DNA from: Hymenobacter sp. BT559
Lineage (GTDB): Bacteria; Bacteroidota; Bacteroidia; Cytophagales; Hymenobacteraceae
NCBI RefSeq assembly: GCF_017571525.1
Contig: NZ_JAGETY010000010.1
Span: 124,001-188,000, forward strand
Length of the DNA stretch: 64,000 bases
Direction of reading: 5' to 3'
The number at the start of each line of letters is the position of its first letter. The stretch's first letter is position 1. The position numbers were made by a program, and so were the translations under genes. The notes under the pieces are model-generated. The model had not been told where the DNA came from. It saw only the letters and a program-made list of their open reading frames with translations, and did no database searches. Shown here piece after piece: positions 18,277 to 29,204 of the stretch.

Positions 18277-21159
18277 ATGATAAAACCTCAACTCCTGGGG
18301 CGTTTGGCACTGGCTATCTTGCTGCTGGTGGGCTGGGCCCCCGTGGCCTGGGCCCAATCGCCGGTGACGGTCAGCCCGTCGTATTTCACCGCCGATACGC
18401 CGCTCACTATCACCTACGATGCCACGCTGGGCGATGGCGGGCTAGCCAGCTACAACGGGGACGTTTACATCTGGACCGGCCTCATCACCGACAAAAGCAC
18501 CAGCAGCACAAACTGGCACTTTGTGGCGGGCACCAACTTCAACGCACCTACGGCGGCCGAGAAGATGACTTCGCTCGGCAACCACAAGTATAGCATTTCG
18601 CTCACGCCGCGTACATATTACCCTGGTTTTGCCACTTCCGGCGAGGTGCTGCAAAAGCTGGCGATGGTGTTTCGCGGCACGGGCGGCTCGCCGCAGGGCA
18701 AAGGCGTGGGCAGCACCGACATTCTGGTGGCGCCCGGCGTGCAGGCCAGCTTCACCAGCCCGGCTGTTTCTAACACCATAGTGCCCGCTGGCACCTCGGT
18801 GACTGTGGCGGGCACGGCCTCGGTGGCCGCCACGCTTACGCTCACGCTCAATGGCGCGCAGGTGGCGCAGCAAGCCAACGCCACCACGCTGTCGGCCAAT
18901 GTAACCATCACCCAGCAGGGGGTAAATACGCTGGTGCTCACCGCCGATGATGGCAAAACTACGTCTTCGGCCACCACGACTATTATCGTAGCGCCGGCCG
19001 TGACCACGGCCGCGTTGCCGGCGGGCGCCAACCCCGATGGCATTACCTACCTGCCCAATGGCACTTCGGTTATCCTGACCCTGACGGCGCCCCGCAAGAG
19101 CTTTGTGTATGTGATTGGCGAGTTCAACAACTGGCAGGCTGCCTCGGCCGGCCTCATGAACAAGACTGCTACCGTAGACTCGGACCCGGCCACCGGCCGC
19201 TGGTGGGTGCAGATAGACGGCCTGACGGCGGGCCAGGAATACGCGTATCAATTTCTGGTAGATGGCCAGCTGCGCGTGGCCGACCCGTATTGCGAGAAGG
19301 TGCTGGACCCGGACAACGACAAGTACATTCCGGCCGTCACTTATCCCAACCTCAAGCCGTATCCCACCGGCAGCACTACCGGCCTGGTATCGGTGCTGCA
19401 AACCAACCAGCCGGCCTATACCTGGACGGCCACCAGCTTTCAGCGCCCGGCCCGCACCAACATGGTGGTGTATGAGCTGCTGATGCGCGACTTTACGGCC
19501 CGCCACGACTACCAGACCCTCAAGGACACGCTTAGCTACATTCAGCGGCTAGGGGTCAACGTCATCGAGCTGATGCCCATCAATGAGTTTGACGGCAACG
19601 ACAACTGGGGCTACAGCCCGTGCTTTTACTTCGCCCCCGACAAGTACTACGGCACCAAAAATGCGCTGAAGGCGCTCATCGACGAGTGTCACCGCCGCGG
19701 CATTGCCGTGGTGCTCGATATGGTGCTCAACCACTCCACCGGTCAGAGCCCGATGGTGCAGCTCTACGGCAACGTATCGACCGGCCCCACGGCCGATAAC
19801 CCGTGGTTTAACACCTCGGCGCCGCACCCCTACAGCGTGTACAACGACCTGAACCACGAGAGTGCCTACACCCGGTACTTCTCGAAGAATGTCATCAAGT
19901 TCTGGCTCCAGGAATACCACATCGATGGCTACCGCTTCGACCTGGCCGGGGGCTTCAGCCAGGTGCCCAAAACGAACGATACCTACGCCAACTACGACCC
20001 GACGCGCGTGGCTATTTGGGAAGACTACTACAACGCCCAGATGGCGGCTAGCCCTGGCTCGTATCCCATTCTGGAGCACTTCCCCAACGGCGTGAGCGCC
20101 AGCAACCCCACCGACGAGGGCAAGGTGCTAAGCGACTATGGCCTGATGCTGTGGGGCAACATGAACCCCAACTACACCCAGGCCTCGATGGGCTACAGCA
20201 GCGGCTGGGACCTGAGCTACGGCTACTACGGCGACCAGGGCGGCCGCGGCTGGGGCAAGCCCAACTCGATAGCCTACATGGAAAGCCACGACGAGGAGCG
20301 GATGCAGTTCAAGAACAAGACCTACGGCAATACCAACGGCAGCTACTCGGTTAAAGACCCCGCCACTGGCCTCAAGCGCGACGAGCTGGCAGCAGTCCTG
20401 TTCTTTAGCCAGCCCGGCCCGCGCATGGTGTGGCAGTTTGGCGAGATTGGCTACGATTACAGCATCAATACCTGCTCGGACGGCACGACCATCGACCCCA
20501 ACTGCCGCACGGCCGCCAAGCCCATCCGGTGGGACTACCGCCAGGACGCCGGCCGCCGCCACCTCTACGCCATTTACAAGACCATGGCCCAGCTCAAGCA
20601 GCAGCCGGTCTTCAGCTCCTTTACCTCGTACACCCAGAACCTGAGTGGCGCTATCAAGTCCATCAGCATCTCAAGTGCTGACCTGAGCGTGGTGACGTAT
20701 GGCAACTTTGACGTGCAGGCGATTCCGACCACCATCACCTTCCCCAGCACGGGTACCTGGTACAACTACATCACGGGCGCTACCCTGAACGTGACCAGCA
20801 CGACGCTGGCCTTCACCTTGCAGCCCGGCGAGTATGCCGTGTACACGAGCAAGGCCCTGGGCACGCCCGTGCCACTGGCTGCCCGCGCCGCCCAGCAAAC
20901 GGCCGCCTTCCAGCTAAGCCTGGCGCCCAACCCGGCCGCCGGCACCACCACCATCCAGTACCAACTGCCCGCGGCGGCCACGGCCAGCATCGCGGTGCAA
21001 AACGTGCTCGGCCAAACCGTGCGCCAGCTAGCCCCTGCCCGCCAGGCGGCCGGTGCCCAGGCGCAGGTGCTGCCCCTGCAGGGCCTGGCGCCCGGTGTGT
21101 ACCTGGTGCGCCTGCAAGCCGGCGAGCTAACCCAGGCCACCCGCCTGCTGGTGCAGTAG
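18277..21159 (+). CDS. Secreted GH13 alpha-amylase family protein, T9SS substrate
   Basis: A 960-aa secreted alpha-glucan-active enzyme. Signal peptide 1-26 (cleavage after AWA). Residues about 27-250 are immunoglobulin-like modules, then a CBM48-type module (SFVYVIGEFNNWQ near 276). The GH13 barrel runs from about 390 to 760: region I VVLDMVLNHST (about 477), region II GYRFDLAGG with nucleophile Asp (about 550), region III PILEHF with catalytic Glu (about 597), region IV AYMESHDEERM (about 668). A C-terminal domain is followed by a type A T9SS sorting domain (LSLAPNPAAGTTTIQY to the end). It should be exported by the type IX system and anchored or released at the surface, digesting starch-like polymers. 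Confidence 0.94.
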   Translation: MIKPQLLGRLALAILLLVGWAPVAWAQSPVTVSPSYFTADTPLTITYDATLGDGGLASYNGDVYIWTGLITDKSTSSTNWHFVAGTNFNAPTAAEKMTSLGNHKYSISLTPRTYYPGFATSGEVLQKLAMVFRGTGGSPQGKGVGSTDILVAPGVQASFTSPAVSNTIVPAGTSVTVAGTASVAATLTLTLNGAQVAQQANATTLSANVTITQQGVNTLVLTADDGKTTSSATTTIIVAPAVTTAALPAGANPDGITYLPNGTSVILTLTAPRKSFVYVIGEFNNWQAASAGLMNKTATVDSDPATGRWWVQIDGLTAGQEYAYQFLVDGQLRVADPYCEKVLDPDNDKYIPAVTYPNLKPYPTGSTTGLVSVLQTNQPAYTWTATSFQRPARTNMVVYELLMRDFTARHDYQTLKDTLSYIQRLGVNVIELMPINEFDGNDNWGYSPCFYFAPDKYYGTKNALKALIDECHRRGIAVVLDMVLNHSTGQSPMVQLYGNVSTGPTADNPWFNTSAPHPYSVYNDLNHESAYTRYFSKNVIKFWLQEYHIDGYRFDLAGGFSQVPKTNDTYANYDPTRVAIWEDYYNAQMAASPGSYPILEHFPNGVSASNPTDEGKVLSDYGLMLWGNMNPNYTQASMGYSSGWDLSYGYYGDQGGRGWGKPNSIAYMESHDEERMQFKNKTYGNTNGSYSVKDPATGLKRDELAAVLFFSQPGPRMVWQFGEIGYDYSINTCSDGTTIDPNCRTAAKPIRWDYRQDAGRRHLYAIYKTMAQLKQQPVFSSFTSYTQNLSGAIKSISISSADLSVVTYGNFDVQAIPTTITFPSTGTWYNYITGATLNVTSTTLAFTLQPGEYAVYTSKALGTPVPLAARAAQQTAAFQLSLAPNPAAGTTTIQYQLPAAATASIAVQNVLGQTVRQLAPARQAAGAQAQVLPLQGLAPGVYLVRLQAGELTQATRLLVQ

Positions 21160-22251: not shown

Positions 22252-23754
22252 CTAGTGGCCGGCCGCATTTACTACCGGCTGGGCCACCGCGGCGTGTTGG
22301 GGCGAGGGCAACAGGTCAATCCAGCCGTCTTCACTTACCACAATAGCCAGGCAGGGGTAGGGCGAGGAGCTGGTATAGCGCACGGCCGAGTTGTAGCGCG
22401 CGCCACGGCTGCTGTCGCCTTTTTCGGTGGCCTGCCCGTCCAGAATAACCCCAATGGCATAGCACACGCCGCTTGGCTCAATCATTACTGCGCCATCAAT
22501 GGAGGTGGCTTGGCGCAGCACGGGCGGCGTCATGGGCCGGGGCACCACCCGGAAGCACTGGCGGCGCAGGCGCTCGGCCTCGGGCTTGGCGCCGGCCGTG
22601 ATGCACAGCATGGTGCCATGGCTCTGATTAGAAGCTTCCAGGGCCAGCTCCCAGAGGTAAGCCACCCCGGCATCGTCAATATCGGGAAAGACCTGCCGGA
22701 TAACGCGGTCAAAATTATCGGCCTGCACCTTGCCCTGCGGCAGGCGCGGCGTGTTGCTCACCACCCGCATAAGCGTGTGGCCAGCATGGCGCAATTCCCA
22801 GCCATAGTGGTTGGTAAAGTGCACCGTGGCCAGGGGCTCATACTGCGGCGCATTTTCGGGCACGAGGTGGCCTAGCCCAAATACGTGCGCCGCATCCGAC
22901 ACCAGGCCCGTCGAGCCTTCGGTGAGCTCCAGCAGCTTGCGGATGGAGCGGTGGTCGCGCAGCGGCACGGGTGTTTCGAGAGTCAGCACCGGCACAATGG
23001 CCGCGTGCTGGCGGCGGCCCAGCAGCATGGTGCCGCGGCCCTCGTCGCCTTCGTGGCGCAGGGCGGCCACGCCCAGGCAGGCATCGTACAGGCCGTGGGC
23101 GTTGCCGGGGCTCACGCGCAGCATGAGGCGGCGGCCGGCACCGCGCAGCACCTCATTGTAGTCGCGGTCGAGCACTGGCTGCTCGTTGTCGGCGGTGTCG
23201 GCTTCGCGCAGGGCGCGGGTACATTCGTGCAAAAACTCCAGCACCGCCGCGTGGGGCAGCGAGCAGGTCCGGTTGGGCCCCGGCTTGCCGGGCAGCGTGT
23301 AGTAAGAATTGTAGGTGTCGGCGGCCAGCTGAAGCACGACTACTACCAGGTAGCCATTGAGACTGAGCGGCGTAGAGCAAAAGCAGCGGCGATTCTCCCC
23401 GCGCCGGGCTACTATGCTCTGCAGTACCTGGTCGGTGGCCTTGCACACCAGTTCGTACCAGTGCTGCTTTTCGATGCGGTCGTGGTCCTGCGGGTGCAGG
23501 TGGTACACATTGTCGCGCGGGCTCAGGTCGCTGGCCTCAAAAGAAGCAGCCAGCGTCTTGATGCCTGCAAACTCGGCTGGGCTGTAGCGCAGGCTGGTGG
23601 GCTCTACCACCACGCTTTGCGGGTCGTCCTCTTCGCGGCCCTGGGCGAGGCCTAGCAAGAAAACCTCAGGCCGCAGATTGCGGTCGAGCAAATTGAAAGT
23701 ACCTTCGGCAAATAGCTGAGCCGAAACGCGAAACAAGCTTTGGTGTTCCCACAT
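22252..23754 (-). CDS. DisA_N (diadenylate cyclase-like) protein with large N-terminal region
   Basis: A 500-aa protein whose last 130 residues match the DisA_N/DAC fold: HGTMLCITAGA near 380 (first strand), SIDGAVMIEPSG with the DGA motif at 420-422, then SSRGARYNSAVRYT at 449-461 and CLAIVVSEDGWIDLL at 468-482. In DisA and CdaA the second motif is GTRHR; here it is GARYN, so the first Arg is kept but His and the second Arg are replaced. Residues 1 to about 370 are an unfamiliar region, possibly a sensor, with no membrane segment, unlike CdaA, and no DisA linker or HhH domain. It may make c-di-AMP, bind a nucleotide, or be inactive. The ATG at 23754 is chosen; the longer frame adds a low-complexity tail. 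Divergent from a small membrane protein gene. Confidence 0.8.
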   Translation of the reverse strand: MWEHQSLFRVSAQLFAEGTFNLLDRNLRPEVFLLGLAQGREEDDPQSVVVEPTSLRYSPAEFAGIKTLAASFEASDLSPRDNVYHLHPQDHDRIEKQHWYELVCKATDQVLQSIVARRGENRRCFCSTPLSLNGYLVVVVLQLAADTYNSYYTLPGKPGPNRTCSLPHAAVLEFLHECTRALREADTADNEQPVLDRDYNEVLRGAGRRLMLRVSPGNAHGLYDACLGVAALRHEGDEGRGTMLLGRRQHAAIVPVLTLETPVPLRDHRSIRKLLELTEGSTGLVSDAAHVFGLGHLVPENAPQYEPLATVHFTNHYGWELRHAGHTLMRVVSNTPRLPQGKVQADNFDRVIRQVFPDIDDAGVAYLWELALEASNQSHGTMLCITAGAKPEAERLRRQCFRVVPRPMTPPVLRQATSIDGAVMIEPSGVCYAIGVILDGQATEKGDSSRGARYNSAVRYTSSSPYPCLAIVVSEDGWIDLLPSPQHAAVAQPVVNAAGH

Positions 23755-23962
23755 AGGTGGCAGTCGGGGGCGATGGGGCGATGGTCGCCAGGGCCGGGAA
23801 GGGCTGCCCACGCATCCGCAAGCAGCACTGGCTAGCCAGCCATACGTAAAAGTCCACTTAATAGCTGCGTAACAGCCAGCAAAGCTGCTACATTTTCGCA
23901 ACTTCATCGTAACTTCGGGTTGCAGCCACGGGCGTTTTCCCTACCATCCAGCACCCTAGCCT

Positions 23963-24220
23963 ATGCTCTTCGTCGACATGCTTTTTGTGATGGTGGTGGG
24001 CCTGTCGTTCATCCCCATTATGACCGGGTACTGCGCCTCCTCCCGCGGGCGCTCGTTCTGGCTATGGTTTGCGCTGGGTTGGCTCCTGCCCATCATATCC
24101 TTCCTACTGCTGTTCGCCCTGATAGCGCGCGATGAGCTAGACCCCGGCCGCCAGCTGCTGCGCGAGGCCCGGCAGATTTTAAAGGAAGCCGAACAGAAAG
24201 CGGTGGAAAAAAATGGTTAA
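23963..24220 (+). CDS. Small two-TM membrane protein
   Basis: An 85-aa protein with two hydrophobic segments (LFVMVVGLSFIPIMTG and WLWFALGWLLPIISFLLLFALIA) and a charged C-terminal helix (ELDPGRQLLREARQILKEAEQ) likely cytoplasmic and coiled-coil-like. No family recognised. It is divergent from the DisA_N gene with about 208 bases between, so a functional link is only suggested. Its last codons and TAA lie inside a palindromic repeat. Confidence 0.65.
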   Translation: MLFVDMLFVMVVGLSFIPIMTGYCASSRGRSFWLWFALGWLLPIISFLLLFALIARDELDPGRQLLREARQILKEAEQKAVEKNG

Positions 24221-24728: not shown

Positions 24729-25958
24729 TTATTTCTGCGCTAGCCACTGCTGCACGCCCGTCGCTACCCAGGCGCCGGTGCTGAAGCAGCCTTGCAGCAG
24801 GTAGCCGCCCGTGGGGGCTTCCCAGTCCAGCATTTCGCCCGCCACGAAGGTGCCGGGCCGGCGGTGCAGCATCAGGCGCGCATCTACTTCGGCCAGCGGC
24901 ACGCCGCCCGCCGATGAGATGGCCTCGGCCAGCGGGCGCAGCCCGGTTACCGGAATCGGCAAGGCCGCGAGGCTAGGCCCCAGGTCGGGTGCCGGGCCGG
25001 CCAGCTCGCGCAGCAGCGTGGGCACCGGCGGCTTCAGGCTAAGGGCGCTGGCCAAAAAAGCCGGCAGCGAGGTGTCCGGCCGCCGCTGCGCCACGCGCCG
25101 CGCCAGCTCGGCGGGGGCCAGGTCGGGCTTCAGATTCAGGAGTAGGCTAGCGGAGTGGCCGGCCGCCAGCGCCGCCCGCAGTTGGGGCGTGAGGGCGTAC
25201 ACCGGCGTGCCCTCCAGGCCATAGTCGGTGAGCATAATCTCGCCGCGCACGGTGTGGCCGCCGCAGCTGAGGGCGATGTTTTTGAGCGGCGCCCGGCCCA
25301 CCTTCTCCTTGAAGAAAGGTGACCAGGCCACCTCGGCGCCACAGTTGGCGGGCTGCCAGGGATGGCAGCGCACGCCCACCGCTTCGAGCAGGGGTACCCA
25401 GCCGCCATCGGAGCCGGTTTGGGGCCAGCTGGCGCCGCCCAGGGCTAGCACGGTAGCGGCCGGCTCCAGGATAAATTCTTCGCCCAGGGCCTCGTTCAGC
25501 AAGCGTAGGCCGGTATTTTCGGCAAAGCCTAGCCAGCGATGGCGGGTGCTTAGCTCCACACCCAGCTCGGCCAGGCGGCGCAGCCAGGCACGCAGCAGGT
25601 CGGCGGGCTTGTGCTGGCTCTCGGGGAAGACGCGCCCGCTGGTGCCCACAAACGTGGCAATGCCCAGCCCGGCGGCCCAGCGGCGCAGGTCGGTGGGGGA
25701 GAAGTGGGCCAGCAGCTGCTCAAACAAGGGGCTAGCCGTGCCGTAGCGCCCGGCAAACGCGGCAGGGTCTTCGCCATTGGTGAGGTTGAAGCCGCCGTGG
25801 CCGGCCACCAGAAACTTGCGCCCCACGGTGGCTTTCTGCTCGAAAATACGCACGCGGCAGCCGGCCTCGGCCAGGCGCTGGGCGGCCAGCAGGCCGGCAG
25901 GCCCGCCCCCGATGATGGCCACCAGTGGGGCAGTTGAAGTAGGAGAATCAGGCTTCAC
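24729..25958 (-). CDS. HI0933/BaiN-like flavoprotein (TIGR03862 type)
   Basis: A 409-aa FAD-dependent oxidoreductase. The N-terminal dinucleotide motif is VAIIGGGPAGLLAAQRLAEAG with the acidic end FEQK; GRKFLVAGHGGFNLTN near 48 is the family signature. LALGGASWPQTGSDG lies near residue 170, and the C-terminus closes the FAD site with GTFVAGEMLDWEAPTGGYLLQG. Members include BaiN-type and uncharacterised reductases. The start is GTG; a -7 box TAAATTTG ends only four bases upstream, so the mRNA is predicted leaderless. Divergent from the antiporter gene. Confidence 0.9.
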   Translation of the reverse strand: MKPDSPTSTAPLVAIIGGGPAGLLAAQRLAEAGCRVRIFEQKATVGRKFLVAGHGGFNLTNGEDPAAFAGRYGTASPLFEQLLAHFSPTDLRRWAAGLGIATFVGTSGRVFPESQHKPADLLRAWLRRLAELGVELSTRHRWLGFAENTGLRLLNEALGEEFILEPAATVLALGGASWPQTGSDGGWVPLLEAVGVRCHPWQPANCGAEVAWSPFFKEKVGRAPLKNIALSCGGHTVRGEIMLTDYGLEGTPVYALTPQLRAALAAGHSASLLLNLKPDLAPAELARRVAQRRPDTSLPAFLASALSLKPPVPTLLRELAGPAPDLGPSLAALPIPVTGLRPLAEAISSAGGVPLAEVDARLMLHRRPGTFVAGEMLDWEAPTGGYLLQGCFSTGAWVATGVQQWLAQK

Positions 25959-26020: not shown

Positions 26021-27223
26021 ATGACTTCTTATGGCATTCTGATTGGCCTGAGCCTGGCCGTTATCCTTTCCTACCTCTTCAACCTGGCTTCGCGGGCTAC
26101 GCGGGTGCCGTCGGTGCTGCTGCTTTTGCTCACTGGCATCGGGCTGCGGCAGTGGGCCGACTACCACGACTACAGCTTGCAGGTACCCAAAACGGTGCTC
26201 GAAATATTCGGCATTATCGGCCTGATAATGATAGTGTTGGAAGGCGCGCTCGACCTGCGCCTGAGCCGCGACAAGGTGCCGCTCATCCGGCGCTCGTTCT
26301 TCGCGGCGGCACTCATGCTGGTGGCACAGGCCGCGACTATCGGCGGGCTGCTGCACCTGTGGCTAGGGGCTAGCTGGCAAACCTGCCTGCTCAATGCCGT
26401 GCCGCTGGTGGTTATCAGCAGCGCCATCGCTATTCCGAGCGTAGCCAACCTGACGGGCGAAAAGCAGGAGTTTATCGTGTACGAAAGCACGTTTTCTGAC
26501 ATCCTGGGCATCATGCTCTTCAACTTCGTTGACCAGGAAGATTTTTACCAGGGCCAGGGCTTGCTCACGTTTGGGCGCGGCGTGGTGCTGATAATTCTGG
26601 TAGCCATTGCGAGCACCGTGCTGCTGAGCTTCTTGTTGGGGCGCCTGCGCGAGCACGTCAAGTTTTTCCTGCTTTTCGCTTTTTTGATTCTCATTTATAG
26701 CCTAGCCAAGCAGCTGCACCTGTCGTCGCTGCTGCTGGTACTGGCTTTTGGCCTGGCCGTTAATAATGCCGACCTGCTGCTGGGCTGGCTGCGGCTGCGC
26801 ACCGGCTGGCGCAGCTTCACCGCCGAAGACCTCGCACCCGACCTGCACCAGCTCAAGAATATCACCGCCGAGTCGGCGTTTCTTATCCGCACGTTTTTCT
26901 TTTTGCTGTTCGGCTATTCCATCACCCTGGCTAGCCTCATCAGCTGGCAGCTGGTGGGCCAGGGCCTGCTGATAGTGGCCGTGCTCACCGGGCTGCGCTA
27001 CTTGTACCTGCGCTACGTGGCCCGCACCGACCTGCTGCCCGAGCTGTTTATCGCGCCCAAAGGCCTTATCACGGTGCTGCTTTTCTATAGTATTCCGGCC
27101 CAGCACGTGCTCGGCGACGTGAGCGAGAATATCCTGTTTGTGGTCATTCTGCTCACCAGCCTGCTCATGATGGTAGGGCTGATAATCAGCCACCAGCAGC
27201 AGACGGAGGCCATTGAGTTTTGA
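26021..27223 (+). CDS. Cation:proton antiporter (CPA family)
   Basis: A 400-aa polytopic inner-membrane protein with about 11-13 hydrophobic segments and no C-terminal Trk/RCK domain. LLLLLTGIGLRQWAD early on and EIFGIIGLIMIVLEGALDLRL near residue 65 are typical of Na+/H+ exchangers. VPLVVISSAIAIPSVANL near 130 and YESTFSDILGIMLFNFV near 157 hold the ion-binding Asp region. It would exchange Na+ or K+ for protons. Convergent with the CLC gene; a palindromic repeat lies between the two stops. Confidence 0.85.
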   Translation: MTSYGILIGLSLAVILSYLFNLASRATRVPSVLLLLLTGIGLRQWADYHDYSLQVPKTVLEIFGIIGLIMIVLEGALDLRLSRDKVPLIRRSFFAAALMLVAQAATIGGLLHLWLGASWQTCLLNAVPLVVISSAIAIPSVANLTGEKQEFIVYESTFSDILGIMLFNFVDQEDFYQGQGLLTFGRGVVLIILVAIASTVLLSFLLGRLREHVKFFLLFAFLILIYSLAKQLHLSSLLLVLAFGLAVNNADLLLGWLRLRTGWRSFTAEDLAPDLHQLKNITAESAFLIRTFFFLLFGYSITLASLISWQLVGQGLLIVAVLTGLRYLYLRYVARTDLLPELFIAPKGLITVLLFYSIPAQHVLGDVSENILFVVILLTSLLMMVGLIISHQQQTEAIEF

Positions 27224-27232
27224 CGTGGCCGT

Positions 27233-27352
27233 GTAGAGACGCATCTTTGCGTCTCCTCATCTGCGCGGCTAGGGCAGGCGTGCCTCGACTCAGCGCAGTA
27301 GCGTTTGCACGGCGGCATCGTTCAACGAGGAGACGCAAGGATGCGTCTCTAC
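27233..27352. repeat. GTAGAGACGCA double palindrome
   Basis: Arms 27233-27258 and 27327-27352 are complementary at 25 of 26 positions, and each arm is itself a small palindrome (GAGACGCA / TGCGTCTC). The right arm contains the TAG stop codon of the CLC gene. The 68-base centre has no gene. Confidence 0.85.
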
Positions 27353-29139
27353 GCCTGCCCTTCCTCTATCAGCTCGCGCCGATACCTGGCCAGGATAGCC
27401 GACTTTACAATGAAGCCCAGGTAGTTACCTTCATCGTCGCACACGGGCAGAGCGGTGCTGTCGGTACGCTCCAACACATCGAGGCAATGCTCGACACTGT
27501 CGGTGGCATGAATAATGGCCACCGGCTTTTGCATCAATTCGCTGAGCTTGGTGGTGGTGTAGTGGGCTCCGTCGAAGAGCGTGTCGCGCACCATGTCGAG
27601 GCTGATGATGCCGCGCAGCTGACCACTTTTGCCTACTACCGGAAACACGTTGCGGTGGGCGTGCCGAAACACATCGACTAGCTCGCCGAGCGTGGCGCTG
27701 GGCCGCAGGGCCAGAAAATCAGTATCGAGCAGCCGGTGCAGGTCGAGGCGCGAAAGCAGGTCGCGGTCGCGGTTGGCGTACACGTCCACGCCCTTGAGGG
27801 TGAGCTTGCGGGTGTAGACCGAGTAGGGCTCGAAGTGCTTGGTAATGAGGTATGAAAAGCTCGTGACGAACATCAGCGGTACAAACAGCGCGTAGCCGCC
27901 CGTGATTTCGGCAATCAAAAAGATGGCCGTGAGCGGCGCGTGCACCACACCCGCCAGCACGCCGGCCATGCCCAGCACCACAAAATGCACCTCCGGAATA
28001 GCCACTAGCCCCGTCATATTCACCAAGCGGGCAAAGAGGAAGCCGCCCAGCGCCCCCGCCACCAGCGACGAGCCAAACATGCCCCCGTTGCCGCCCGCGC
28101 CCACCGTAATGCTGGTAGCCACCACCTTCATCATCATCGTGAAAAAAACGAGAATGAGCAGCAGCCACACGTTGTTGTCTCCATACACCGAAAACAAGCT
28201 GTCGTCGGTGAGCGCCTGGGCGTTGCCGGCCAGCAGCTTCTCTACCACCGTGCTGTAGCCCTCGCCATAGAGCGGCGGAAACAGAAAGATGAGCGCCCCC
28301 AGCGCCGTGCCCCCTAGCAGCACTTTCTGCCAGCGCAGCCCGGGCCAGCGCTCCCAGAAATGGTCAAACCAGTGGTAGGTCCGAATCATATACACCGAGA
28401 GCAGCGCCGTGAGCAGCCCGAGCACCAAATAAAACGGCACCGTATTCACCACCCACGAGTTGGTAATGAGCGCAAACGGCTGGCCCGCGTACAGGGCCTT
28501 CGACACCACCGTGGCCGTGGCCGACGAAATGAGCAGCGGAATAAAATACTGCGCCGGCAACTCCATCAAAATCGCCTCGACCGCAAACAGCACCCCCGCG
28601 ATGGGCGCATTAAAAATGGCCGCTATGCCCGCCGCCGCGCCGCAGCCCGTGAGCAGACGCCGCCGCCGTCGGCCCGCCCGCAGCACCCTGGCCGCATTGG
28701 AGCCAATGGCCGAGCCCGTCACCGAAATCGGGGCCTCGGTACCGGCCGAGCCGCCAAACGACACCGTGAGAAAAGCCGTGATGAGCTGCGAATATAGCTT
28801 GGAGCGCGGCACAATGGCATTTTCGCGGGCCGTGTTGTAGATAATGGGGCCGATGCCCCGGCCCAGGTTGCCGTGCAGCAAGTACTTGGTAACGAGCACC
28901 GTGAGCGTGATGCCGATAATTGGGTAAATCGAGAGAGCAAATACCCGGTTGGGCTCCGTCACGGCCTGGGCCAGCCGGTTTTGCTGCCAGTGCACGGCCG
29001 TTTTGAGGGCCACCGCCGCTAGCCCCGCCAACACGCCCACCAGCCCCGCCAGCCACACCACGTACACCCGCTCGCTCACATGGCGCAAGCGCCACAGCAG
29101 GAAGGGGTTAAGCAGGCGATGAACGAGGCTCTTCTGCAT
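27349..29139 (-). CDS. CLC chloride channel/transporter with CBS pair
   Basis: A 596-aa membrane protein. Residues about 20-430 are the CLC pore: GNLGRGIGPII stands where the first selectivity motif lies, GGSAGTEAPISVTGS carries the gating Glu (E148 of ClC-ec1), and GAGGNGGMFGSSLVAG matches GxFxP. GGYALFVPL supplies the selectivity-filter Tyr. The internal proton-pathway Glu (E203 of ClC-ec1) appears replaced by Ala in GVLFAVEAILMEL, pointing toward channel or uncoupled behaviour. Two CBS domains follow (about 460-590). The start at 29139 (MQKSLVHRLL) avoids an unlikely upstream extension. Confidence 0.92.
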   Translation of the reverse strand: MQKSLVHRLLNPFLLWRLRHVSERVYVVWLAGLVGVLAGLAAVALKTAVHWQQNRLAQAVTEPNRVFALSIYPIIGITLTVLVTKYLLHGNLGRGIGPIIYNTARENAIVPRSKLYSQLITAFLTVSFGGSAGTEAPISVTGSAIGSNAARVLRAGRRRRRLLTGCGAAAGIAAIFNAPIAGVLFAVEAILMELPAQYFIPLLISSATATVVSKALYAGQPFALITNSWVVNTVPFYLVLGLLTALLSVYMIRTYHWFDHFWERWPGLRWQKVLLGGTALGALIFLFPPLYGEGYSTVVEKLLAGNAQALTDDSLFSVYGDNNVWLLLILVFFTMMMKVVATSITVGAGGNGGMFGSSLVAGALGGFLFARLVNMTGLVAIPEVHFVVLGMAGVLAGVVHAPLTAIFLIAEITGGYALFVPLMFVTSFSYLITKHFEPYSVYTRKLTLKGVDVYANRDRDLLSRLDLHRLLDTDFLALRPSATLGELVDVFRHAHRNVFPVVGKSGQLRGIISLDMVRDTLFDGAHYTTTKLSELMQKPVAIIHATDSVEHCLDVLERTDSTALPVCDDEGNYLGFIVKSAILARYRRELIEEGQA

Positions 29140-29161
29140 AATTACTCTAGCGCTACACCCT

Positions 29162-29204
29162 AATCGTTTGTCATTGCTTCGCAAGCTCGCAATGACAAAC
29201 GATT
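29162..29204. repeat. Short-form palindromic repeat
   Basis: A perfect 16-bp stem (AATCGTTTGTCATTGC and complement) with an 11-base loop TTCGCAAGCTC; same family as 9-134. Lies between the AddB-like gene end and the CLC start. Confidence 0.85.

Follow-up and report, generated by a model that had tools for sequence, protein, structure and literature searches.

The window, a 64,000-nucleotide stretch of a Hymenobacter sp. BT559 contig (family Hymenobacteraceae), carries on its minus strand a gene for a protein with three consecutive Pfam domains, DACNG, DACNH and DAC (DisA_N), the last being the diadenylate cyclase domain. The genus has a second copy of this gene, paralog B, and the copy in the window is here called paralog A. 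Its domains and predicted active-site motifs are arranged as follows.

22252-23754, minus strand: coding sequence of the DACNG-DACNH-DAC protein (paralog A), 500 aa, from a start common to orthologs
23122-23754, minus strand: DACNG domain, residues 1-211 (Pfam PF21752, E 2.1e-64)
22783-23097, minus strand: DACNH domain, residues 220-324 (Pfam PF21750, E 3.4e-29); probable pseudo-DAC by fold (fold search of residues 212-345)
22324-22635, minus strand: DAC (DisA_N) domain, residues 374-477 (Pfam PF02457, 35.6 bits against a cut-off of 27, E 7.5e-9; Foldseek)
22489-22497, minus strand: DGA motif, residues 420-422, with D420 and G421 invariant
22435-22446, minus strand: ILDG loop, residues 437-440, family-specific and adjoining the adenine-contact position of CdaA (profile and family alignment)
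22384-22407, minus strand: RGARYNSA, residues 450-457, in place of GxRHRxA (profile and family alignment)
22327-22335, minus strand: SED, residues 474-476, in place of SEE at the metal ligand position (profile and family alignment)

The start was placed at the ATG at 23754 (MWEHQ), which is used by most orthologs, and the open frame extends upstream to 23907. Re-reading the sequence reproduced the coordinates, strand, length and motifs recorded for this gene in an earlier note. The C-terminal domain, described there as DisA_N-type, passes the curated PF02457 cut-off and has a DAC fold, and no 19-residue window in the whole protein is hydrophobic enough for a transmembrane (TM) helix, as that note had supposed. 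Its statement that the N-terminus matches no domain is out of date, since Pfam places DACNG and DACNH there and the NCBIfam model DS2_3 (NF053872) aligns to residues 1-484 (E 1.5e-128, 430 bits, below the equivalog cut-off of 630). The identity and family assignment of the protein are firm, and it matches the DACNG-DACNH-DAC architecture (PF21752, PF21750, PF02457) exactly; DAC architectures were reportedly surveyed by Galperin in 2023. No PADLOC (2023) model matched paralog A, sequence and profile searches of PDB chains returned no relatives, and no phage record contained it.

Profile alignment with the CdaA family of the same genome placed IDGA on DGA, G451-A-R-Y-N455 on G-L-R-H-R and S474-E-D on SEE. 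Paralog A has the DGA motif of canonical diadenylate cyclases, but GARYNSA in place of GxRHRxA and VSED in place of (V/I)SEE; this agrees with the earlier report of DGA at 420-422 and of GARYN for GTRHR, and a canonical RHR at another site was looked for throughout the protein and is absent. Across 163 aligned homologs D420, G421, I437-L-D-G440, R450, G451, R453, N455, Y460, S474 and D476 are invariant and position 454 is occupied by Tyr or Phe and in one case by Leu (family pattern G-[AS]-R-[YFL]-N); 41 of these homologs (21 A, 20 B) were collected through the N-terminal DACNG model with no motif filter, about 36 further ones from Hymenobacteraceae through the same model but with a loose DGA...GxR filter at extraction, and the remaining 86 mostly through a peptide-pattern scan using parts of the motif, which biases the invariance counts. 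R-x-N is also kept in six plasmid homologs found by plain tblastn.

In CdaA of L. monocytogenes, Asp71 binds the ribose, the main chain of Leu88 binds adenine, Thr102, Arg103, His104 and Ser122 bind the phosphates, and Glu124 binds the metal (PMC7288161). Like CdaA, DisA and CdaM, paralog A combines the DAC fold with DGA, and in its family the ribose-binding Asp, the phosphate-binding Arg, the Ser and an acidic residue in the metal position are all retained; unlike them paralog A has RYN for RHR, so that His-Arg is replaced by aromatic-Asn, SED for SEE, and the ILDG loop, and it is devoid of TM or DNA-binding parts. Changing the whole RHR motif to AAA abolishes the activity of canonical DACs (PMC3328451, PMC4568413, PMC13022847), and we found in the literature no single His-to-Tyr or Arg-to-Asn change in these enzymes.

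DS-2 is a validated anti-phage system with DS2_3 as its DAC (DefensePredictor, PMC13092281). Mutation of the predicted catalytic residues of the DAC, which are not named in the main text, abolishes DS-2 defence, and 15 of 30 DAC homologs adjoin CBASS (PMC13092281). The three-gene order of DS-2 was recovered in E. coli, where the genes are annotated as anti-phage phospholipase, nucleotidyltransferase and protein, lie beside a DncV CBASS, and include a DAC that carries SRGSRYNSGVRY; the same order was found on a Citrobacter plasmid and a related arrangement in Gluconobacter. DS2_3 scores were 804 bits for the Citrobacter protein, 645 for a Pedobacter protein, 438 for paralog B and 430 for paralog A. 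Because the Citrobacter protein exceeds the DS2_3 cut-off and the E. coli protein carries the sequence given above, RYN is the form present in a working defence family. With R453 and N455 invariant in 163 of 163 homologs and the E. coli DS-2-type protein also of the RYN form, the motif is, as the alignments read, the family signature of a distinct subclass and not that of a decayed copy. The altered RHR motif pointed out earlier is thus real, but not peculiar to paralog A.

The earlier note had left the choice between a cyclase that forms a distinct subclass and has a sensor of its own, and a regulator lacking catalysis. The cyclase half is now the better supported, through the invariant RYN, the retention of D420, R453, S474 and an acid at 476, and the need for the DAC of the family in DS-2, and we predict that paralog A is probably catalytic. 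Two of the three RHR residues differ in paralog A, which counts against an active cyclase, and the literature yielded no reported product of any DACNG-DACNH-DAC family member. According to the regulator half, which now appears rather unlikely, paralog A would be a catalytically dead DAC that serves in sensing or regulation, its ligand being ATP, c-di-AMP produced by the CdaA of the same genome, or another nucleotide. The replacement of the His104 and Arg105 equivalents, the change from SEE to SED, and the presence of a canonical CdaA with GLRHRAA and VSEET in the same genome are in keeping with such a role, but the replaced motif is invariant and not drifting, the ribose Asp, phosphate Arg, Ser and acid are kept, and DS-2 defence depends on the residues predicted to be catalytic in its DAC. 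We also consider it unlikely that paralog A is a cyclase with altered base choice, in which the ILDG loop admits a non-adenine base and the product is not c-di-AMP: D439-G440 is invariant and aligned directly after the residue corresponding to CdaA Leu88, and many relatives adjoin CD-NTases making other cyclic nucleotides, yet the profile alignment is weak in exactly this loop (hhalign E about 0.01).

An AlphaFold2 model of paralog A built on 48 family sequences (pLDDT 88.5) contains the DisA_N fold. When the full model was compared with 350,542 PDB chains by Foldseek, the 44 leading matches were all DAC domains with a probability of 1.00, including CdaM (8ofj, 1.5e-4), DisA, CdaA and DacA, and the next match had an E-value of 0.48; residues 1-370 had no significant PDB match in this search, and a fold search of BFVD returned nothing significant. 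The DACNH sequence alignment shows, by eye, a DAC-like order of elements, with a GxGxLLL strand, an RKLLE helix and an ADxExIYGLG hairpin. A separate model of residues 212-345, a segment ending ahead of the DAC domain, reached a pLDDT of 89.1, and its five best PDB matches were all DAC domains, the first unrelated match having an E-value of 3.1. The DAC matches included CdaA 6hvm (E 0.021, probability 1.00, TM 0.58/0.51), 8c4j, CdaM 8ofj and DacM 7dfx, with modest E-values and a high rmsd (about 7).

Since DACNH folded alone matches only DAC structures, these models suggest that it is probably a degenerate pseudo-DAC standing in tandem with the RYN-type DAC. Neither profile comparison nor Pfam gave a signal between DACNH and DAC, and the likeness is thus structural only. 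Pfam goes no further than calling DACNG and DACNH probable sensors. A DAC-like fold for DACNH is a proposal of the present analysis, and the pseudo-DAC reading looks new against the databases and literature found. If true, it would suggest either a pseudo-dimer within the chain or an allosteric site for a nucleotide, and would give DACNH, so far only a 'probable sensor', a concrete mechanism.

DACNG is present in 81 of 81 genomes of the window's genus, with two copies in all but two genomes, which have three. Among 296 genomes sampled over the phylum it was found only in that genus, and within the Hymenobacteraceae in three of six sampled genera. A tree built by a quick method resolved clade A, which holds the copy in the window and that of a single-copy genus, and clade B as sisters with support of 95. 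Database records named Hymenobacter cluster with, or are almost the same as, paralog-B proteins from the window's genus and its sister genus. Across 19 genomes, within-A and within-B distances co-vary (Mantel r 0.887, 0 of 5000 permutations as high); orthologs of paralog A are 85-95% identical with a dN/dS of about 0.08-0.18, and pairwise dN/dS overall ranges from 0.02 to 0.18 for A, from 0.04 to 0.18 for B and from 0.04 to 0.30 for the small two-TM gene beside A. Paralogs A and B are two ancient, vertically inherited core paralogs under purifying selection. At one paralog-A locus (L024, genome G064) a 420-aa frame was found from which no DAC motif was recovered, possibly through a frameshift or sequencing error.

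No CD-NTase or patatin was detected in 41 loci of the family in Hymenobacteraceae, each of 18-20 kb, and SMODS, a CD-NTase model, had no match in the window's genome; a CD-NTase is present at 29 of 66 loci outside the window's genus and at 26 of 34 in the Pseudomonadota-type group. Paralog A shares with DS2_3 the same three domains in the same order, the RYN and ILDG signatures and an alignment over residues 1-484, but is only about 31% identical to the Citrobacter member, scores 430 bits against the required 630, has no adjoining phospholipase or CD-NTase, and is core and vertically inherited where DS-2 is sporadic. It also lacks a C-terminal extension of about 86 residues, the median number of residues after position 483 being 5 in A and 9 in B versus 86 in a mixed non-A/B set.

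The surroundings of paralog A contain the following features.

23755-23962, no strand: divergent intergenic region, 208 bp, in which a TA-N2-CTTCGG-like core, conserved in part, lies upstream of the two-TM gene (19 orthologous regions aligned)
23963-24220, plus strand: 85-aa two-TM protein, constantly present as the divergently encoded neighbour of paralog A (two hydrophobic stretches; locus comparison)
24729-25958, minus strand: HI0933-like flavoprotein, with synteny retained at 18 of 20 other A loci
27349-29184, minus strand: ClC chloride channel carrying CBS domains; one lies close to paralog A at 16 of 20 other loci

Of 20 other A loci, 18 have the two-TM gene in this place and orientation; the two that do not are those of the single-copy genus. 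Conservation of this divergent small membrane gene, which the earlier note had marked for checking, therefore holds at all 18 further A loci from the window's genus and its sister genus. By genome search the gene was strong in 51 of 51 sampled genomes of both A+B genera and was otherwise seen weakly, in two genomes. Its product has conserved TGYCA and GRSFWxWFxLG motifs, a P-x-x-SF helix and a charged C-terminal helix. Weaker relatives occur elsewhere in A/B genomes (e.g. G000:C28:252895-253020), some of them in tandem (e.g. G041:C22:134368-134830). In each of 19 other B loci, the gene directly before paralog B encodes a protein with two TonB_C domains, and a bestrophin gene lies near paralog B in 15 of 19. 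A core, CBASS-free branch with such fixed neighbours looks new against the databases and literature found.

A defence island at paralog A was ruled out, the neighbours being a NagK-like kinase, an alpha-amylase, the flavoprotein and the ClC channel. The alpha-amylase (18277-21159), a large secreted protein that has a Por_Secre_tail sorting domain of type IX secretion, is ordinary. A multi-TM neighbour at 26021-27223, taken by eye for a cation antiporter, has no Pfam match at 1e-5 and was not used as evidence. Canonical c-di-AMP controls ion balance, and for this reason the ClC channel near A and the bestrophin near B hint at ion or membrane physiology; the basis is gene order, which conserved synteny by itself could explain.

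The reading we favour, with a probability of roughly 60%, is that paralog A belongs to a defence-related subclass, is catalytically active as a nucleotide cyclase, and has been domesticated for membrane or ion physiology. It would be a soluble cyclic-nucleotide synthase, homologous to DS2_3, on a branch fixed in the chromosome of the window's genus and its close relatives. Two DAC domains would meet face to face, and a cyclic dinucleotide would be formed from two NTPs, most likely ATP; DACNG and the DAC-like DACNH may gate synthesis, either through a bound ligand or by packing against the active domain. To judge from gene order, the divergently encoded two-TM protein could be the membrane-side partner, as a receptor, anchor or regulator. 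The role would probably lie in membrane or ion homeostasis and not in phage defence, which is the weakest step of this proposal.

A wider formulation, which must be regarded as doubtful, would make RYN-type proteins in general tandem DAC-fold enzymes, with DACNH as pseudo-DAC and a divergent active DAC, that produce a signal distinct from c-di-AMP, serve immunity beside CD-NTases in many bacteria, and were domesticated in one genus as two core genes, one with the two-TM partner and the other with the TonB_C partner. That the pair is an anti-phage system of the genus itself, a cyclase with the two-TM protein as membrane-damaging effector, is quite improbable: small TM effectors do occur in known cyclic-nucleotide defence systems, the family is related to DS2_3, and relatives in other Bacteroidota adjoin nucleases or CBASS E1-E2/JAB genes, but paralog A is found in every genome at the same place under strong purifying selection, versus a close DS-2-type gene in only 18 of 5426 E. 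coli genomes, and the two genes are divergent, not operonic, among neighbours that are not defence genes. A recently decayed copy is ruled out by the invariant motif and a dN/dS of about 0.1.

DS-2 shows that a DAC can be essential for anti-phage defence. In the window's genus the same family, stripped of CBASS parts, is represented by two core genes with one constant neighbour each, which makes it possible to study the enzyme and its presumed membrane partner in isolation.

The window's genome encodes a fourth DAC-type protein (L185, G000:C28:346515-346772), which is missed by the Pfam DAC model; like paralog A it is soluble, with an N-terminal 'probable sensor' and a C-terminal DAC-like region with VDGA, but the N-terminal domain is a different one, DACNV, and RH is kept (GGTRHLAA) instead of RYN. 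In Pedobacter soli a NucC-like/DUF6602 nuclease gene (L136:6091-6921) immediately precedes a DAC that scores at the DS2_3 level; no CD-NTase was detected in the vicinity, and the pair is possibly a two-gene cyclase-nuclease system. In Chryseobacterium limigenitum a CBASS-like E1-E2/JAB operon contains a 147-aa ORF (L138:6063-6506) with a weak DAC match (E 0.009), and a DACNG-DAC gene lies just downstream of this ORF. One IMG/VR contig classed as viral (L169) carries the DAC together with a CD-NTase, which may reflect either spread of the system on prophages or misbinning. Finally, homologs are present in archaeal metagenome contigs (L121, L122 and L127; Methanoperedens, Methanosarcinaceae), and the upstream context in L121 includes an exonuclease VII large subunit.
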